6,242 nt of DNA from Desulfobacterales bacterium (lineage in GTDB: Bacteria; Desulfobacterota; Desulfobacteria; Desulfobacterales; JAUWMJ01), in the NCBI GenBank assembly GCA_030613225.1, contig JAUWMJ010000200.1, forward strand, positions 1-6,242, given 5' to 3'. The translations under genes and the position numbers were made by a program. The notes beneath the pieces were generated by a model. That model had not been told where the DNA came from and did no database searches. It saw only the letters and a program-made list of their open reading frames with translations. Below, piece after piece: positions 1 through 6,242 of the stretch (position 1 is its first letter; every line of letters begins with the position of its first letter).

Positions 1-155
1 GGGTTCAGGGTTGAAGAAACAGATACAAGATGCCTTCTGTTCATCGATGCAAAGTATCGCAGAAGTTTTCGATTCCGAGACAAATTCGGAGTTCATCCGG
101 TTCTTGCGATACGTAAAGCGACCAACCTTGAACTGTGAACCCAGAACCTGACAAC
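1..155. repeat. Heptamer-armed inverted-repeat element A (left end cut by window)
   Basis: The left arm is the start of the window, GGGTTCA GGGTTGA (1-14). The right arm (123-158) reads on the opposite strand as degenerate 7-bp units such as AGGTTCT, GGGTTCA and CAGTTCA, ending towards the core in AGGTTGG. The core between them folds: GTATCGCAGAA (54-64) pairs with TTCTTGCGATAC (101-112) with one bulged base, and TCCGA (74-78) pairs with TCGGA (86-90) inside it. A competing stem joins CTTCTG (34-39) to CAGAAG (60-65). I found no convincing reading frame in the core. The element ends about 40 bases before the putative promoter of the next gene. The left boundary lies outside the window, so its full length is unknown. 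Confidence 0.7.
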
Positions 156-195
156 CTGAGTAATTGCAAAATTATTACCTAAAATCGGTTTTTAT

Positions 196-224
196 TTGAC
201 CTTAATGAAATTGACTGATAAATT
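196..224 (+). promoter_or_regulatory. Putative sigma70-type promoter of the Smr-domain gene
   Basis: TTGACC (196-201) and TAAATT (219-224) are separated by 17 bases. The -35 box matches five of six consensus positions and the -10 box four of six. It lies in A+T-rich DNA between element A and the start codon at 254, which gives a leader of roughly 20-25 bases. The -10 is weak, so this is a candidate only. Confidence 0.4.
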
Positions 225-253
225 TTCAATATTCATTTTCAAAGGCAAACACT

Positions 254-976
254 ATGAAACCTACCAGACCCTCAGGCAACTTTCGACCTTTTGAAGACTT
301 GAAAGCCCTTCTTGAAAGCAGGTCAAATCTACCTGAGCATCTCACTTTTGACATCCCTATAAAACCTTTTGGAGAAAAGCCGAACCCGGAAACGTACCCG
401 GACGATGATCAGAAACTTTTTGAAAAAGCTATGGCAGACGTTAAACCTATTGCAAAAGAAGATCGGATAGAAAATACCCCTCTTCCGAGACCGCCGGCCA
501 GCCATGAAAATAATGAAGATTATGAGACCCTGGCGCGCCTTAAAAAACTTGTAAATTCCGGTAAAGGCTTTGTTGTTGCCGATACTCCCGAATATATAGA
601 GGGTGCAGGATACAAAGTCCATCCGGAGATTACTAAACGTCTTCACCGAGGCGATTTTTCAATTCAGGCCCACATTGATCTCCACGGGTTAAATGCAAAT
701 GATGCAAGGTCGGCTTTTGATACATTTTTGAAAAACTCTTTAATGATGAATAAAAGGGCTGTTATGGTAGTACATGGACGCGGGCTTTCATCACCAGGCC
801 ACCCTGTATTAAAATCCAAGGTTCGCGAATGGCTTACATGTGGCCCGTGGCGCAAATGGGTTATGGCCTTTTCAAGCGCAAGGCTCTGTGACGGAGGTGC
901 TGGAGCAACTTATATACTGCTCAGGCAACGCCCCCTGACAAAACAATTCATAAAAGGAAAAAGGCATATTGTTTAA
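254..976 (+). CDS. SmrB-like Smr-domain protein (putative endonuclease)
   Basis: This 240-residue protein ends in a Smr domain (about residues 138-226) with the expected motifs: DLHGL (142-146), HGRG (174-177) and GGAGATYILLR (214-224). The region before it resembles enterobacterial SmrB: an acidic stretch followed by DQKLFEKAM (52-60), comparable to the SmrB N-terminal helix, and RGDFS (132-136) just before DLHGL. No MutS ATPase domain is present, so it is a small stand-alone Smr protein, not MutS2. In E. coli, SmrB cleaves mRNA at collided ribosomes; the same role here is an inference from motifs and from lying near fusA. The Asp and His of DLHGL, and HGRG, which are tied to nuclease activity in the family, are intact. 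The start at 254 has an AAAGG element (241-245) eight bases upstream. The protein looks cytoplasmic, with no signal peptide or membrane segment. Other Smr proteins act on DNA, so the substrate is uncertain. Confidence 0.85.
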   Translation: MKPTRPSGNFRPFEDLKALLESRSNLPEHLTFDIPIKPFGEKPNPETYPDDDQKLFEKAMADVKPIAKEDRIENTPLPRPPASHENNEDYETLARLKKLVNSGKGFVVADTPEYIEGAGYKVHPEITKRLHRGDFSIQAHIDLHGLNANDARSAFDTFLKNSLMMNKRAVMVVHGRGLSSPGHPVLKSKVREWLTCGPWRKWVMAFSSARLCDGGAGATYILLRQRPLTKQFIKGKRHIV

Positions 977-1003
977 AACATAACACGGATAAACCAGAGA
1001 GAC

Positions 1004-1018
1004 CAAGCGCTTCGCTTG
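1004..1018 (+). other. Short hairpin between the Smr gene and elbB
   Basis: CAAGCG (1004-1009), a CTT loop and CGCTTG (1013-1018) form a perfect 6-bp stem 39 bases before the elbB start. No T-tract follows, so I do not call it an intrinsic terminator. It could attenuate or punctuate the Smr-elbB transcript. The 80-base gap shows no convincing separate promoter. Confidence 0.35.
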
Positions 1019-1056
1019 AGGATTGGAGTTAAAACTGATAACGAAAGGAGGACAAT

Positions 1057-1710
1057 ATGGCTAAAATAGGTGTATTACTTTCAGGTTGCGGAGTAAACGA
1101 CGGCAGCGAAATTCACGAAGCTGTGATTACATTACTTACTCTGGACAGGGCTGGAGCCGAAACAGTCTGTATGGCACCTGATGTTGATCAGTTTGATGTA
1201 GTTAACCATTTAACGGGCGAAGCAACTGGTGAAAAAAGAAATGCGCTGGTTGAATCGGCCAGGATTGCAAGGGGCAACATCAAAGATATAAGTAAAGTCC
1301 AGGCGGCAGATATAGACGGCCTCATAATTCCGGGTGGATTCGGCGCTGCTAAAAACTTAAGCAATTTTGCCGTTAAAGGAAAAGACGCCGTTGTAAATGA
1401 AGATGTTAAACGGCTTTTAAACGACATGGTTTCCGCCGGCAAACCAATAGGTGCTATTTGTATTGCACCTGCAACATTGACTAAAGCCCTGGAAGGAAAA
1501 TATCCTGAAGTAACTATCGGCAACGATATCGGCACAGCCGATGCAATCGAGGCAATGGGAGGGCAACATAAAGAATGCAGTGTTGACTTGATCCACGTGG
1601 ACAACAATAATAAACTCGTTACAACTCCTGCCTACATGCTTGGGCCAGGCATAAAGGATGTTGCCGTCGGTATAGAGAAACTTGTAAACAAAGTTTTGGA
1701 ACTTGTTTGA
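1057..1710 (+). CDS. elbB: ElbB, DJ-1/PfpI-family glyoxalase-like protein
   Basis: The 217-residue protein has the same length as E. coli ElbB and matches remembered ElbB sequence at the signature positions: IGVLLSGCGV (4-13), DGSEIHEA (15-22), HLTGEA (51-56), PGGFGAAKNLSNFA (92-105) and the nucleophile-elbow segment GAICIAPA (132-139). Cys135 is the predicted nucleophile and Glu18 the family's conserved acidic residue. ElbB is a cytoplasmic class I glutamine-amidotransferase-like fold protein; the E. coli protein has been linked to isoprenoid formation and to weak glyoxalase activity, but its physiological substrate is unsettled. The start is fixed by a strong Shine-Dalgarno, AAAGGAGG (1044-1051), five bases before ATG. 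It lies 80 bases after the Smr gene on the same strand and may share its transcript. No clear terminator follows; a promoter for the next gene begins 17 bases after the stop. Confidence 0.93.
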   Translation: MAKIGVLLSGCGVNDGSEIHEAVITLLTLDRAGAETVCMAPDVDQFDVVNHLTGEATGEKRNALVESARIARGNIKDISKVQAADIDGLIIPGGFGAAKNLSNFAVKGKDAVVNEDVKRLLNDMVSAGKPIGAICIAPATLTKALEGKYPEVTIGNDIGTADAIEAMGGQHKECSVDLIHVDNNNKLVTTPAYMLGPGIKDVAVGIEKLVNKVLELV

Positions 1711-1726
1711 AAGAAAAAATATTCTC

Positions 1727-1754
1727 TTGACATTGTTGTTTTGATCAATATATT
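1727..1754 (+). promoter_or_regulatory. Strong sigma70-type promoter, probably for fusA
   Basis: A perfect TTGACA (1727-1732) is followed after 16 bases by TATATT (1749-1754), five of six consensus positions. It is the best promoter in the window and lies directly after elbB. The next full-length gene on this strand is fusA at 2020, so the leader would be about 260 nt, nearly all of it element B. Without element B the promoter would lie about 35-40 bases from the fusA start, a normal distance. Confidence 0.65.
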
Positions 1755-1769
1755 TAGCCTTCTTTTTTA

Positions 1770-1994
1770 GTAACCGTTCACGGGTTCAAAGGTTCAGGGT
1801 TCAGAGGTTGTCGGTTCTCAATATAAATCTGAATCCCAGCGGGAATTCGTAATCTCTGACTGGAGAAGGCATGATAATAGAACGATTTGAGGATATTGAG
1901 ACATGGCAGTTGGCCAGAGAGTTAACTCGCAAGGTCTATGGACTGACAAAAAAGCAACCCTGAACCCCTGAACCCTGAACCTGTGAACGGCTAC
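1770..1994. repeat. Heptamer-armed inverted-repeat element B in the fusA leader
   Basis: The outer ends are inverted repeats: GTAACCGTTCAC (1770-1781) against GTGAACGGCTAC (1983-1994), 11 of 12 positions pairing. The arms continue as degenerate units of 7-8 bp, mainly GGTTCAG and GGGTTCA (left arm to about 1817; right arm 1955-1994, read on the opposite strand). Both arms end towards the core in GGTTG (left 1806-1810; right, as CAACC, 1955-1959). The core contains a small hairpin, GAATCCC (1831-1837) with GGGAATTC (1841-1848, one bulge), then a ribosome-binding site and the broken S23/IVP reading frame. No target-site duplication is obvious. I infer a non-autonomous palindromic element; no transposase is present. 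Confidence 0.75.
1871..1963 (+). pseudogene. Truncated four-helix-bundle S23/IVP-family gene (5' end only)
   Basis: ATG at 1871 opens a 30-codon frame, too short for routine gene calling. Residues 3-15 (IERFEDIETWQLA) and the following RELTRKVYGLTKK (16-28) match the typical start of four-helix-bundle proteins of the 23S rRNA intervening-sequence (S23/IVP) family, which also includes the Avd accessory proteins of diversity-generating retroelements. Family members are normally about 110-130 residues, so only the first helix remains. A GGAG (1862-1865) lies five bases upstream of ATG. The last codons, CAA CCC TGA, belong to the right heptamer arm of element B: the repeat supplies the stop exactly where gene similarity ends. 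I infer that the rest of the gene was lost by internal deletion inside the element. The short peptide could still be translated, but function is unlikely. Confidence 0.75.
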
Positions 1995-2019
1995 AATTTA
2001 TCAAACAGGAAAAAGCGAA

Positions 2020-4104
2020 ATGAAAAACGATATACAAAAAGTTAGAAACATCGGCATAAGTGCACACATCGACTCAGGAAAAACAACTCTTACGGAACGG
2101 ATTCTATTTTATACCAAGCGGATACATACCATTCACGACGTTAAAGGTAAGGATGGTGTCGGTGCAACCATGGATTCCATGGAGCTTGAAAAAGAACGGG
2201 GTATAACCATAGCTTCTGCAGCTACATTCTGTAAATGGCACGGTAACGATATCAATATTATTGACACTCCTGGCCACGTCGATTTTACAATTGAAGTTGA
2301 ACGATCCCTGCGTGTGCTTGACGGTGCAATACTGGTCCTGTGCAGTGTTGGTGGTGTTCAGTCCCAATCGATTACCGTTGACCAGCAAATGAAAAGATAC
2401 AAGGTGCCGTGCGTTGCATTCATCAATAAATGCGACAGAAGCGGGGCAAATCCTTTACGAGTCATCAACCAGCTTAAAGAAAAACTTGGTCATAATGCCG
2501 TGGCAATGCAAATATCTGTGGGCCTTGAAGCTGATTTAACAGGAATTGTCGACCTTGTTATAATGAAGGCGATCTATTTTGATGGCGACAACGGTGAGAA
2601 TGTTCGCATCGAAGAGATACCTGACAACCTTCTTCAGGAAGCGCTTCAAAAGCGGGAAGAACTTATTGATGCAGCCTCAATGTTTTCAGATGAGCTTATG
2701 GAAGCCGCACTTGAAGATCGGGTAACTGAAGATCTGCTTATATCCGCCGTACGAAGCGGCACCCTTGCACGTGAATTGACTCCGGTTTTTATGGGATCGG
2801 CCTATAAAAACAAGGGCGTTCAACCGCTCCTTGATGCTGTTACAAACCTCCTGCCATGTCCGTCCGATGTAGAAAACGAAGCCCTTGACATGGAAGATAA
2901 TGAAAAGTCGGTTATCCTTTCCAGCAGTCCTGATGATGATCTTGTTGCATTTGCATTTAAGCTTGAAGACGGGCAATACGGTCAACTCACTTACATACGG
3001 GTATACCAGGGAACCCTTGCCAAAGGTATGGCAATGGTTAACGTTCGTAATGGAAAAAAGGTCAAAGTCGGCAGGGTTGCCAGGATGCATGCAGACCAGA
3101 TGGAAGATATTGATAAAATTGATGCAGGATATATAGGCGCTCTATTCGGTATTGACTGCGCATCCGGAGATACCTTTGCTTCTCCGGGAATGGGCCTGAC
3201 CATGACATCCATGTTTGTACCTGAACCTGTAATTTCTCTTGCGATTGTTCCAAAAGACAACAAATCTCAGATTAACATGTCCAAGGCCCTTGGACGATTC
3301 ACAAAGGAGGACCCAACCTTCAGGACCCATGTAAGTGATGAAACCAATGAAACCATCATAGAAGGAATGGGAGAACTTCATCTTGAAGTTTATGTTGAAA
3401 GGATGCGACGGGAATACACCGCAGAAGTTTCTACAGGTAAGCCCCGCGTTGCTTACAGAGAAACAATAACCAGAAAAGCCCAATTCAATTATACTCACAA
3501 AAAACAAACCGGCGGTGCCGGGCAGTTTGGCCGTGTGGCAGGTTATATTGAGCCGGTCGCAGAAGAAGAATTCGTATTTGAAAATAAAATTACCGGTGGC
3601 TCCATTCCAACCCAGTTCATCAGTGCATGCGAAAAAGGTTTTAAGCAATCCCTTGCCAAGGGGCCTAAAATGGGCTTTTCTGTAACAGGTGTTAAAATTG
3701 TTATTAATGATGGTGCATCCCATTCGGTTGACTCTTCCGAAATGGCCTTTCAGGCTGCGGCTCGCGGAGCATTTAAAGAAGGATATGCCAAAGCAGGCCC
3801 GGTCATCCATGAGCCCATCATGAAAGTCGTAGTCGAGACTCCCACGGAATTTCAGGGTGCTGTCATGGGTTCTTTAAATCAGCGCCGGGGAATGATAGTC
3901 GGTGCTCAGGATGAAGGCCCCATGTGCAGCATCGAATCCCGTATTCCACTATCTGAAATGTTCGGTTATTCAACTGTTTTAAGGTCCCTGACACAGGGCA
4001 AGGCGCAGTTCACCATGGAATTTAATGCATATAAACAGGTGCCGCAGCAAATCATGGAAGAACTTGTCGAAAAAGCCAGGGAAGAAAAAAAGAATGTTGC
4101 GTAA
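2020..4104 (+). CDS. fusA: Elongation factor G, mitochondrial EFG1-like (spdEFG1 type)
   Basis: This full-length 694-residue translational GTPase catalyses GTP-dependent translocation of tRNA and mRNA on the ribosome. G motifs are intact: P-loop AHIDSGKT (15-22), switch I RGITI (60-64), DTPGH (82-86), NKCD (136-139) and GSAYKN (259-264). Domain II follows at about 305-400, domain III near 400-480 with GMGELHLE (449-456), and domain IV carries the decoding-centre loop [10 protein letters not shown] (565-574); domain V ends the protein. Ser19 replaces the Ala usual in ordinary bacterial EF-G. Together with [17 protein letters not shown] (41-57) and [13 protein letters not shown] (374-386) this closely matches human mitochondrial EFG1. 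In the Atkinson and Baldauf scheme that places it in spdEFG1, the translocase paralogue, rather than spdEFG2, proposed for recycling; this subfamily call is from memory of signatures. A weak AGGA (2007-2010) lies nine bases before ATG. Its leader is occupied by element B. Confidence 0.97.
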
Positions 4105-4184
4105 ACTTATTCGCAATACCAAAGACTCAGCACAAGCAAATATCAATTTTAACAGTACTCAGGCAAAGATCTTTCACCTTAAAG

Positions 4185-4191
4185 AAAGGAG
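4185..4191 (+). promoter_or_regulatory. Ribosome-binding site that sets the ATPase start
   Basis: AAAGGAG (4185-4191) lies seven bases before ATG at 4199. The open frame extends upstream to an in-frame ATG at 4025, inside the fusA 3' end, but the residues before 4199 are low-complexity out-of-frame translation of fusA and spacer. The strong site here argues for the start at 4199. Confidence 0.85.
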
Positions 4192-4198
4192 TTTCAGA

Positions 4199-4906
4199 AT
4201 GCTGAAAAATGACCTTATACTTCGAAACCCTTTAAGACTTATGGGATATAAAGCCGAAGAGATTCTTACCCCTGGCGGATTCGGTGCGGTACTCGCACGT
4301 GCCGGTGTCGGAAAAACATCCTTTTTGGTACAACTTTCTTTGAACTCCCTTCTTAAAAATAAAAATGTCCTTCATATAAGCCTGAACGATCCGGTAAATA
4401 AAGTTAATTTATGGTACAGAGAAGTTTTAAGTCGTATAGCAGAACAAAACAATATTCAACAGACAAGCCGACTGGTCGAAACCATCCTGCCCCACAGGTT
4501 TATCATGACATTCAGGGTCGAAGGCTTCAGTGTACCCAAGCTTGAAGAAAGGCTGTCAGATCTTACCGAACAGAATATTTTTTCTCCGCAGATGCTTATT
4601 ATAGATGGACTCCCCTTTGATGAATCCATTTATGAACCGCTTTCACAGCTTAAAACCCTTGCGCAAAAGAATTCATTATATGTATGGTTCACCATGCGAA
4701 CCCATCGCGATGAGACAATGGGACCAGATGGTATTCCCACCAGGCTGATTAAAGTTGCCGATCTTTTTGAAGTAGTCGTCCAACTCCAGCCTGAAGGAAA
4801 AGAAATACATGTTAAAGCCCTGAAAGGAGAAGGAGCGAATTCCGACCATCCATCATTGCTGCTTGACCCTGCGACAATGCTGATAAAAGATCAAACCGAT
4901 AAGTGA
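4199..4906 (+). CDS. Uncharacterised RecA/DnaB-fold P-loop ATPase downstream of fusA
   Basis: With the start at 4199 this is a 235-residue protein. It has one P-loop ATPase domain: LTPGGFGAVLARAGVGKTSF (residues 23-42) gives a Walker A ARAGVGKT (33-40), in which Ala replaces the usual first Gly, as in DnaB-type ARPSMGKT. QMLIIDG (131-137) is a plausible Walker B after a hydrophobic strand. FTMRTHRDE (164-172) may be a sensor or arginine-containing motif. The order and spacing suggest a RecA/KaiC/DnaB-like core with no extra domain. There is no signal peptide or membrane segment, so it is probably cytoplasmic. It begins 94 bases after the fusA stop with no clear terminator or promoter between them, so cotranscription with fusA is likely. 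I do not recognise a named family and assign no substrate; the link to translation is only by position. Confidence 0.85.
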   Translation: MLKNDLILRNPLRLMGYKAEEILTPGGFGAVLARAGVGKTSFLVQLSLNSLLKNKNVLHISLNDPVNKVNLWYREVLSRIAEQNNIQQTSRLVETILPHRFIMTFRVEGFSVPKLEERLSDLTEQNIFSPQMLIIDGLPFDESIYEPLSQLKTLAQKNSLYVWFTMRTHRDETMGPDGIPTRLIKVADLFEVVVQLQPEGKEIHVKALKGEGANSDHPSLLLDPATMLIKDQTDK

Positions 4907-4925
4907 CGCCTGTTCCACCAGAGCC

Positions 4926-4966
4926 TGATGACATAATCCAGCTGCTGTAACTGATGTTATGCATCA
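4926..4966 (+). terminator. Possible terminator-like hairpin after the ATPase gene
   Basis: TGATGACATAA (4926-4936) pairs with TTATGCATCA (4957-4966) as a 10-bp stem with one bulged A and a 20-base loop. CCTGAT (4924-4929) can alternatively pair with ATCAGG (4973-4978). The structure begins 20 bases after the stop codon. No run of T follows directly, so intrinsic termination is uncertain. Confidence 0.3.
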
Positions 4967-4998
4967 TTCACAATCAGGATCTTATCTACGCTTTTGCA

Positions 4999-5152
4999 AT
5001 TGACTATTGACGATTGAATATTGAATATTTGTTGTATTGCTCGCGCAGCGCAAGCGCTTGCGCCGCGTGTCGCTCTGCCGTTTTGACTGAAATTGTCATG
5101 TAAAAATTGGCAGCAACCTTAAATTTTCAATTTTCATTATTCAATATTCAAT
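4999..5152. repeat. Heptamer-armed inverted-repeat element C between convergent genes
   Basis: The left arm (4999-5034) is five 7-bp units, ATTGACT, ATTGACG, ATTGAAT, ATTGAAT and ATTTGTT, then G. The right arm (5114-5152), read on the opposite strand, is ATTGAAT twice, AATGAAA, ATTGAAA and ATTTAAG, then GTTG. Both arms therefore have the same unit number, period and inner GTTG end, in opposite orientation. The 79-base core holds a very G+C-rich palindrome (5042-5069) and a CTGCC/GGCAG pair (5075-5079 with 5109-5113). No gene is visible in it. It lies tail-to-tail between the ATPase gene and the receiver gene, so it could serve as a two-way transcription stop. The rest of the 328-base gap (4907-4998, 5153-5234) shows only weak hairpins. 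Confidence 0.8.
5042..5069. other. Strong G+C-rich palindrome in the core of element C
   Basis: GCGCAAGCGCTTGCGC (5048-5063) is a perfect 16-bp palindrome. After one mismatched pair (5047/5064) pairing continues for five more positions, one of them a G-U, to 5042 and 5069. It stands out from A+T-rich surroundings and would form a stable hairpin or cruciform. Confidence 0.8.
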
Positions 5153-5234
5153 TTTTCTTCTTCGCTGTTTTCCTTCCTCCTATAAAGCATCAATCTTAAA
5201 ACCGATAATGAAAGCAACTTTCTATTTTCGTAAA

Positions 5235-5615
5235 TCAGCCCAACGTGCTATTTATGGCGGCAACAAGTTGCTTTGTTCCAATGGGCTTGGCTATAAATTT
5301 ATGACCAGCGATGTTTGAAATTCCTCCATCTTCTATTTCATGTTTTGTTATCAGTGCCGTGAAAAATAATACTGGTGTTTTTTTAGTTTCAGGAATTTTA
5401 GAAAGTCTTTTAGCAACTTCTTCGCCGCTCATTTCCGGCATAGATATGTCCAGCAAAATCAGATCAGGTTTTTCTCCTTTGGCAATTTCAATCCCTTCTT
5501 TCCCCGAGACAGCCTCTATAACATGAAATTCTCGGGTATTCTCTAAATTGCCTTTTACAAAAAAACGAAAATCTTCTTCATCATCTATTATAAGTATTTT
5601 TTTTCTGTCCATCAT
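5235..5615 (-). CDS. Stand-alone response-regulator receiver protein (CheY-like)
   Basis: This 126-residue protein is a single receiver domain. IIDDEE (9-14) provides the acidic Mg-binding pair Asp11 and Asp12. LILLDISMPEMSG (52-64) carries the phosphoacceptor Asp56. FFTAL (84-88) supplies the conserved Thr86, and FIAKP (107-111) supplies Lys110. All key receiver residues are present and there is no output domain, so it should act by phosphorylation-dependent binding to a partner, as CheY or Spo0F do. Neither a histidine kinase nor a flagellar gene is in the window, so partner and pathway are unknown. Two adjacent ATG codons (5615 and 5612, minus strand) follow AAAGGAGG (5629-5622); the first is six bases away and preferred. 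It is convergent with the ATPase gene. Element D lies 45 bases upstream of its start. I found no convincing promoter on this strand. Confidence 0.93.
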   Translation of the reverse strand: MMDRKKILIIDDEEDFRFFVKGNLENTREFHVIEAVSGKEGIEIAKGEKPDLILLDISMPEMSGEEVAKRLSKIPETKKTPVLFFTALITKHEIEDGGISNIAGHKFIAKPIGTKQLVAAINSTLG

Positions 5616-5640
5616 TTTTCTCCTCCTTTATGAACTTAGC

Positions 5641-5651
5641 GCCCTGCGGGC
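5641..5651. other. Small G+C-rich hairpin in the receiver gene leader
   Basis: GCCC (5641-5644), TGC and GGGC (5648-5651) form a 4-bp stem just upstream of the receiver gene's ribosome-binding site and beside element D. It could be an outlying part of that element or a leader structure. The stem is too short to be sure. Confidence 0.3.
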
Positions 5652-5659
5652 AAACTTTT

Positions 5660-5747
5660 GACAGGATTAACAGGTGTCAGGTGTCAGGTGTCAGAAACGC
5701 GAGATCTGAAACCTGAACACTGAAACCGGAAACCAGTCAACCCTGTC
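5660..5747. repeat. Heptamer-armed inverted-repeat element D upstream of the receiver gene
   Basis: The outer ends GACAGGATTAAC (5660-5671) and GTCAACCCTGTC (5736-5747) are inverted repeats with two mismatches in 12. The left arm continues with three exact AGGTGTC units (5672-5692). The right arm, read on the opposite strand, has the degenerate units TGGTTTC, CGGTTTC, AGTGTTC and AGGTTTC. The core between the arms is only about 11 bases and contains AGATCT. It is the shortest element in the window, 88 bp, with no room for a gene. It differs from A-C in lacking an inner GTTG. Confidence 0.7.
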
Positions 5748-6053
5748 TAAAAATAATATTACATTGACATAATTACAAATAAAATGGAGATTTCTATACT
5801 ATTCTTTTATTGAATTAAGCAGTTATAGCCATCCGCCGCAGCTCTGCTGTTATCCGGCCTTCGTAGCCGAAGTTACTACGGCGGAGTAGGCTGGCGAAGT
5901 CGCCATTTTAACCAGCAACGAGAAGGGAAAGGCACAGAGGCACCCGTCTTCGCCTTCGGCTTCAGACTATGCTTTCCAGCTACGCCTCGACAAGACGCCA
6001 CGGCCAGGAAGGCACATGAAAGGGCTCGGCGAATGCTGGATAACCGGCAAAGA
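5748..6053. other. Gene-free stretch: A+T-rich segment, then G+C-rich hairpin-rich DNA
   Basis: Positions 5748-5825 are A+T-rich and include TTGACA (5764-5769), but no -10 box at normal spacing and no downstream gene, so I do not call a promoter. From about 5826 composition changes sharply to G+C-rich. Small stems are frequent: CGTAG/CTACG (5862-5866 with 5876-5880), GGCGA/TCGCC (5893-5897 with 5900-5904) and GCC-TTC-GGC (5952-5960). GTTATCC near 5850 reappears inverted as GGATAAC near 6038. Open frames on the minus strand here are low-complexity and lack a ribosome-binding site. I infer repetitive non-coding DNA, possibly another REP-like element joined to array E. Confidence 0.55.
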
Positions 6054-6200
6054 GTAACGAGTATCCAGTATCGAGTATCCAGCATCCAGTATCGAGCATC
6101 CAGTATCCAGTATCGAGGATCCAGTATCGAGGATCCAGTAACGAGGATCCAGCAAACAGGATCGAGGATAGATTATCGAGAATGTTGTATCTTGGATCGC
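6054..6200. repeat. Heptamer tandem array E (about 21 units)
   Basis: Eighteen consecutive 7-bp units without any phase slip run from 6054 to 6179, followed by three degenerate ones to 6200. The commonest are GTATCGA and GTATCCA (left half) and GGATCCA alternating with RTAWCGA forms (right half); in places two heptamers form a 14-bp higher-order unit. GTTG follows immediately (6201-6204), as at the inner end of the arms of A-C. No opposite arm is visible before the window ends at 6242, so this may be the left arm of a larger element. The minus-strand frames through it give repetitive peptides of the ILDTGYS kind and should not be annotated as genes. The last 42 bases are unassigned. Confidence 0.85.
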
Positions 6201-6242
6201 GTTGCTTTGAACGCCTATGCTTCCTCTATCGCTGTCAATCAT

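Follow-up and report, generated by a model that had tools for sequence, protein, structure and literature searches.

Mirrored short-unit arrays in intergenic DNA of a Desulfobacterales bacterium and their relation to four-helix-bundle (PF05635) genes

Repeat segments of the window

The DNA analysed here (the window) is a stretch of 6,242 nucleotides, contig JAUWMJ010000200.1 of a Desulfobacterales bacterium, in which five intergenic segments, A to E, lie among the genes listed in Table 1. We describe the short tandem arrays of these segments and their relation to genes for a four-helix-bundle protein (FHB) of family PF05635, the '23S rRNA intervening-sequence protein' (IVP/S23). The closest relatives of the window are Desulfobacteraceae: the nearest related locus is from Desulfobacteraceae CSMAG_2445 (L001; ElbB 94%) and the second from Deltaproteobacteria CSMAG_1936 (L002; ElbB 88%), and synteny of both with the window spans the Smr to the ATPase gene. 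No rRNA family matched anywhere in the window, and no reverse transcriptase was present among its searched open reading frames (ORFs). The sole Rfam match in the window, mir-541, fell under the gathering score and was regarded as chance.

Table 1. Genes, arrays and elements located in the window
Feature	Position	Strand	Remarks
Element A	1..167	+	short left arm at 1-16 and right arm at ~122-160 around an FHB remnant
Smr gene	254-976		
ElbB gene	1057-1710		
Element B, deleted FHB cassette	1770..1994	+	between ElbB and EF-G
Left array of B	1776..1817		GGTTCAG-like, 7- and 8-bp steps; Tandem Repeats Finder and shuffles
FHB (PF05635) gene remnant in B	1871..1963	+	about 28 first codons, then stop
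Right array of B	1955..1988		mirrors left array
EF-G gene	2020-4104		
ATPase	4025-4906		open frame; weak AAA/DnaB-like match
Left array of C	4999..5029		ATTGAAT; Tandem Repeats Finder and shuffles
Right array of C	5122..5155		mirror image; Tandem Repeats Finder and shuffles
Response regulator	5235-5615	-	
Left array of D	5671..5694		AGGTGTC; Tandem Repeats Finder
Right arm of D	5706..5740		CTGAAAC-like, partly complementary to left; arms versus shuffles
Array of E	6053..6200		GTATCGA/GTATCCA; mirror arm, if any, outside window

Each segment was compared with 500 dinucleotide-preserving shuffles; the thresholds for the array score are our own choice. At period 7, segments C and D scored 20 and 23, with inverted arms of 21 and 20, respectively, and none of these values was reached by any of the 500 shuffles. 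The best period of segment B was 15 (7+8; score 14, with 1/500 shuffles as high), while its period 7 score of 11 and its inverted arms of 27 were each reached in 0/500; these arms are 33 nt long and 85% complementary. Segment E scored 82 at its best period of 14 and 57 at period 7 (0/500 shuffles), and its inverted arms of 11 were equalled in 45/500 shuffles, indicating that a mirror arm is absent within the window. For segment A, the period 7 score of 8 was reached in 9/500 shuffles at period 7 and in 90/500 at any period, and its inverted arms in 61/500, so that neither feature is significant alone. Tandem Repeats Finder reported arrays at 1776-1817, 1956-1981, 4999-5029, 5122-5155, 5671-5694 and 6053-6180, and zero rows in segment A. 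The repeats in B to E are therefore genuine; the short segment A does not carry the claim by itself.

A first-pass annotation of this DNA had described arrays with a unit length of 7 bp, differing in sequence from segment to segment, that were mirrored around a core in A to D. This shared architecture was upheld against shuffles for B, C and D, including the mirror arms, and could not be upheld for A on its own evidence. The repeat steps of B, however, are a mixture of 7 and 8 bp. The right arm of D is an imperfect complement, its CTGAAAC/CTGAACA units being no plain complement of AGGTGTC. RNA folding gave z values of -7.5 for B, -4.2 for A (1-150), -4.0 for C (5006-5155) and -2.4 for D.

Element A was identified by homology to a locus carrying an FHB gene (FHB locus) in another genome, L091, and not by its own period or arms: positions 8-121 share 81% DNA identity over 115 nt with the interior of L091. 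Its right end is CCTGAGTAATTGC at 155-167, homology to L001 and L002 starts at 168, where the element ends on the right, and its left arm is truncated by the window edge. Element B ends in GTAACCGTTCA and TGAACGGCTAC, with 0 and 1 mismatches, respectively, and these inverted repeats begin GTAA. The left 184 nt of B share 91% DNA identity with FHB locus L094 and 89% with L084. Both loci also match the right part of B with their right arms, so that B is a cassette that has lost an inner stretch. The core of B matches the PF05635 profile over 24 residues (E 0.015, 16 bits, which fails the cut-off of 33.8); the FHB genes of L094 and L091 match at 6.1e-28 and 5.5e-28. By homology, then, the cores of A and B are decayed pieces of an FHB gene. 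D shares its left unit with the arms at FHB locus L223 (a match scoring 24 over 27 nt). Among FHB arms, the one that E matched best, with a score of 34, lies on the left of L196, and its unit GAGTACC is similar and not identical.

FHB genes between mirrored arrays

We compared 114 FHB loci of a first set, mostly Desulfobacterota relatives with 15 loci from other groups, and 59 loci of two further samples; these are mostly best-scoring places and not a random draw. L108 (a second piece of the L100 gene) and the weak L187, L188, L189, L195 and L200 were excluded, as were loci with flanks below 120 bp (2/114 and 3/59). A 250-bp flank was called periodic at a score of 14 or more. Both flanks were periodic at 64/112 FHB loci of the first sample, as against 1/400 control ORFs (a random draw from L001-L080, which does not cover every FHB genome), and at 12/26 and 9/30 FHB loci of the other two samples. 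The 161 periodic flanks of the first sample had a best period of 7 in 98 cases, 8 in 24, 14 in 12 and 9 in 5, and this presence of 8, 9 and multiples of 7 or 8 argues against the earlier suggestion that a protein or polymerase counts seven bases.

The two arms of one gene also pair with each other. With a threshold of 22, the 99% point of the control, the two arms flanking a gene in the first sample had a median pairing of 23 and exceeded the threshold in 59/112 cases; for mixed arms of different genes the median was 11, with 5/400 above 22. The corresponding counts in the other samples were 14/26 own versus 4/650 mixed and 9/30 own versus 6/870 mixed. Irrespective of the unit, the left arm was G-rich in 102/109 cases and the right arm C-rich in 100/109. 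These counts indicate that FHB genes are associated with mirrored arrays, and that the association extends over all three genome samples. PF05635 itself was present in 102/147 genomes of the class of G002, the relative genome analysed below, in 37/79 genomes of the phylum of G158, the source of planctomycete locus L073, and in 61/80 of the phylum of G155, the source of Bacteroidetes locus L078; it was frequently multi-copy, and some copies carried stops.

The repeat unit follows the FHB subfamily. After removal of pieces below 85 residues, 161 FHBs remained (the same removal applies to the counts of strand bias, own versus sister arms and neighbourhoods), and an arm match was scored when opposite arms of a pair from different genomes reached 18 or more; pairs in this and the following two comparisons are not independent. 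Arm matches amounted to about 2% in every bin below 50% FHB identity and rose to 8% at 0.5-0.6, 49% (42/86) at 0.6-0.7, 69% at 0.7-0.8 (n=45) and 81% at 0.8 and above (n=16). Among the 147 pairs with an identity of at least 0.6, the neighbouring frames were unrelated in 132, and the unit was shared by 79 of the 132 (58 elements). Each FHB subfamily thus tends to keep its own repeat unit, a pattern indicating that arms and gene share common descent. Arms paired better with their own partner than with that of a sister copy in 112/147 pairs, worse in 24 and equally in 11, which fits either a symmetry constraint or conversion within a copy. The median dN/dS of FHB was 0.11 (23/40 pairs with finite dS), indicating purifying selection on the protein.

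One could suppose that mirrored arrays are host regulatory hairpins, serving as transcript stems for termination or mRNA stability next to which FHB is incidental. The stable folds of A to D are compatible with such a role, as is the position of B at the site of a terminator-like hairpin in the relatives. We consider it improbable: the relatives lack B at that site, and the units track FHB and not the neighbouring genes.

Ends, target duplications and arrays without FHB

Two sets of element ends were first spotted by eye in the flanks and then counted over all loci with arms of at least 18. The rows of these counts mix alternative ends of one element with chance ends, so that the fractions are rough, and the contrast with mixed pairs of ends is large. 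For the GTAACCGTTCA..TGAACGGTTAC family, which includes B and may be IS66-like, exact 8-bp duplications were found in 10/77 rows versus 10/5852 mixed pairs, and duplications of 7/8 or better in 16/77 versus 20/5852. For the GGATCATCTCC..GGAGAAGAACC family, the counts were 4/27 versus 2/702 (exact) and 9/27 versus 12/702 (7/8 or better). At the level of sequence, the elements have spread between unrelated neighbourhoods, and two families carry target duplications; the donor transposase is conjectural. A Y1 transposase as carrier was rejected, since 0/29 Y1_Tnp loci had both flanks periodic, though 3/29 had arm pairing above 22.

Other short elements with similar marks were seen at several loci. 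L012 contains four elements, each some 130 bp long and bounded by GTAACTATTCA-like ends (1622-1751, 12155-12283, 13841-13970 and 14909-15040), three with exact 8-bp duplications and one with 7/8. A MITE-like (miniature inverted-repeat transposable element) family whose members measure some 156 bp and show exact 8-bp duplications occurs at L264 (1795-1951), L268, L282 (18731-18887) and L084 (1351-1506), the last copy lying inside the FHB gene. In L202, L204, L231 and L241 an FHB cassette (FHB at 1501-1818, gene orientation) lies within a DNA-methylase gene, the frame of which stays open through the entire insert, with FHB read in a different frame. Five aligned homologues have no arms and no FHB at the cassette position, and among the matches listed 106/120 homologues cover 99-100% of the query region. 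The methylase gene of L202 and L204 holds two more short mirrored repeats with a GTTAGTG-like unit, in frame and without FHB.

The first-pass annotation had also made its reading depend on a genomic excess of 7-bp arrays, and this was examined in the relative G002, using up to 20 kb from the start of each of contigs C1-C80 (1,037,240 bp, of which 161,670 were non-ORF). An excess was present in this relative: the sample held 129 non-ORF arrays, 58 of them at period 7, as compared with 3.4 in all and 0.4 at period 7 in each block-shuffled set, and periods 8 (22 arrays) and 16 (18 arrays) were raised as well. Many of the period-16 arrays (e.g. at L260, L284, L313 and L319) are GAGCGCTTCGCTT-like, a kind of repeat that also flanks FHB locus L095. 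The 129 arrays were accompanied by 7 FHB domain matches. The sample contained 30 inverted pairs with spacers of 24-465 bp, some of which have almost the same core at several loci; one such core, some 147 nt long and with no FHB match, recurs at L310 (~8420-8830), L311 (6830-7260) and L324 (4770-5200). When arrays distant from any FHB were compared with the arms of the 11 FHBs of G002 itself, 52/104 matched, whereas 20 random arm sets from other genomes gave 24.3 matches on average (range 11-44). Loci from FHB-free genomes had 0 arrays of period 7-9 in 11,006 non-ORF bases and those from FHB-bearing genomes 9 in 13,396, totals that are small.

The period 7 excess in G002 would also be expected if 7-bp repeats grew by slippage anywhere in intergenic DNA and were mirrored by local template switching, with FHB incidental; a 7-nt polymerase footprint has been proposed, as far as the excerpted text of PMC4679880 goes, and the better pairing of own than of sister arms is in keeping with local mirroring. 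As a main cause this is already hard to keep, and we give it little chance, in view of the rarity of such flanks at control ORFs and their absence from Y1_Tnp loci, of the way in which the unit tracks the FHB lineage across unrelated neighbourhoods, and of the terminal repeats and target duplications. The proposal of the first-pass annotation that a sequence-blind process acts on each copy in place is not supported as a main cause: the unit is inherited with the FHB gene, as the arms of one FHB subfamily match between genomes even in unrelated neighbourhoods, and two families have terminal repeats with 8-bp duplications. Slippage, which it had put forward as part of such a process, may still lengthen arrays, and the arms of one copy may change in concert.

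Probable mobile FHB-array cassettes and comparable systems

The linkage of unit to gene, together with the signs of mobility, suggests that what the segments have in common is membership of a class of mobile cassettes with an FHB gene or its remains. We consider it probable that the segments of the window are copies or remains of such widespread small FHB-array cassettes, moved in trans. From outside to inside, a cassette would consist of a terminal inverted repeat (in two families), a 7-bp (or 8- or 9-bp) array, a core and the mirrored array, the core of a complete cassette being one FHB gene. A and B would be FHB cassettes with deletions, D and E arrays with units resembling those that flank FHB genes elsewhere, and C an array-only relative. 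Cassettes would lack a transposase of their own and be moved by a resident one, and FHB would recognise its own unit, probably in a folded transcript or an extruded hairpin. Such recognition could keep the two arms alike, and unit and protein together, and array-only copies may be non-autonomous derivatives that stand to FHB as REPINs do to RAYT.

Several observations weigh against mobile cassettes. Two-sided periodicity was lacking at 48/112 FHB loci of the first sample and at more than half of those in the other two, and only 4/108 arrays of the G002 sample had an FHB nearby. Segment C found no good match among FHB arms (best scores 15 for the left and 17 for the right array). Element B lacks a target duplication (4/8) and stands in place of the terminator-like ElbB/EF-G hairpin of both relatives (L001 ~2580-2633, L002 ~10714-10780), which the window lacks; its own insertion is supported by the absence of a counterpart at the same site in L001 and L002 and not by a duplication. 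Some of the copies counted had already served for recognising the end motifs by eye. Duplications sought from array tips in 123 elements showed a modest enrichment (exact in 6/123, 1.35% expected; 7/8 or better in 37/123, 16% expected); in copies with outer terminal repeats the true ends lie beyond the tips. PF03050 (IS66) was detected in 2/6 genomes, G007 and G326, and was missing from both G001 and G002. Among the loci searched, no long element with cassette ends and an 8-bp duplication looked like a donor, the hits with duplications being previously recognised FHB elements and, in L032, a single match that resembles chance. Finally, the net charge of FHB is about 0, which does not favour plain nucleic-acid binding, and the idea of a basic protein was dismissed for this value.

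The neutral charge would be unsurprising if FHB were a passenger, the arrays serving the transposase that moves them, the protein being uninvolved and unit and gene linked by common descent only. Terminal repeats with 8-bp duplications fit DDE-type transposition in trans, and multi-copy array pairs without FHB and with near-identical cores are what such a process could leave behind. We nevertheless regard a passenger protein as somewhat unlikely, given the purifying selection on FHB, the strand bias that the arms show with respect to the gene, and cross-genome arm matches that persist at 60-70% FHB identity, which is long for unconstrained DNA.

Templated synthesis offers another route to arrays of this kind: a reverse transcriptase with an Avd-like FHB helper might add repeats to both ends of an intermediate in the manner of telomerase, and such addition before integration would yield mirrored, element-specific units. 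PF05635 has been likened to Avd, a protein of diversity-generating retroelements (PMC10053308, in the part available), and the arrays do show one unit per element, in mirror image and with strand bias. The distribution of the enzyme makes this very improbable indeed. PF00078 is found in 83/147 genomes of the class and in 7/15 of those with nine or more FHB matches; G002, G110 and G113 are among the 8/15 FHB-rich genomes without it (drafts, with one reverse-transcriptase family considered). A dependence on reverse transcriptase was accordingly rejected as unsupported; judged by this one family, FHB does not require the enzyme within its own draft genome.

Beyond the cassettes themselves, we put forward, as a tentative possibility that we hold with some doubt, that FHB and its subfamily-specific mirrored arrays form a self-recognising mobile system. 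The protein would bind its own unit and spread or protect all bearers of it, and the system would be a main source of the intergenic heptamer excess, with 23S rRNA intervening sequences as landings in rRNA and Avd as a domesticated branch.

Several known systems resemble the cassettes in part. RAYT, a Y1 transposase, is a small gene with partner palindromic repeats (REPINs) and many gene-less copies; this organisation is alike here, and the difference is that the core gene is an FHB and that Y1_Tnp loci lack periodic flank pairs. IS66-like MITEs have GTAA.. terminal inverted repeats and an 8-bp duplication, and the GTAACCGTTCA family agrees with them in its ends and in how long its duplications are; unlike them, the cassettes carry arrays and an FHB gene, and PF03050, the candidate donor transposase, was undetected in both G001 and G002.

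Intervening sequences of 23S rRNA with an S23p/IVP gene, e.g. in Coxiella burnetii, share with the cassettes the protein family, a stem that encloses the gene and is made by complementary ends, and a suspected mobile or selfish origin (PMC4990558). They differ in lying within 23S rRNA helices, in being cut out of the rRNA and in having a 28-bp stem, and short-unit tandem arrays are not mentioned for them in the excerpt of PMC4990558 used here; the present elements are intergenic, with FHB-subfamily-specific arrays. Element B, likewise, lies outside rRNA and has a complementary stem around an IVP fragment.

The intergenic heptameric repeats of Xanthomonas and Nostoc are 7-bp arrays with convergent inverted pairs (70 and 75 in two Xanthomonas genomes); unlike the present arrays they are described as comprising one repeat type per genus and forming G-quadruplexes, and the excerpted text of PMC4692102 makes no mention of an FHB gene ('four-helix' has 0 occurrences in it). 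The X. campestris FHB of solved structure, Xcc0516 (2GSC), matches the L094 FHB with E 4e-8, and a possible link of this protein with the convergent GGGAATC pairs in Xanthomonas is a lead. The heptanucleotide STRR (short tandemly repeated repetitive) sequences of cyanobacteria, which the first-pass annotation had named as the nearest parallel, and the TAACTGA repeats of Beggiatoaceae are also intergenic 7-bp tandem units. The TAACTGA sets are direct (169 sets, one inverted; PMC4679880, as excerpted), unlike the mirrored pairs and many units per genome found here. Assignment to the cyanobacterial STRR was not upheld, as B to D are mirrored and not direct and the relatives are Desulfobacteraceae.

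In the excerpts at hand, the function of the C. burnetii S23p/IVP-type proteins is called unknown (PMC4990558), and a bacterial heptamer excess is noted without an agreed cause (PMC4692102, PMC4679880); among the titles and abstracts listed by searches of the open-licence literature none was found that joined PF05635 or FHB with heptamer or inverted arrays. The link described here gives an orphan FHB protein a testable partner, the array, and an orphan repeat a carrier, and it suggests an intergenic parent for the 23S rRNA intervening sequences. PF05635 genes are common in the sampled genomes, hence the relevance of the link, and the many natural pairs of protein and unit are a set from which recognition rules could be read.

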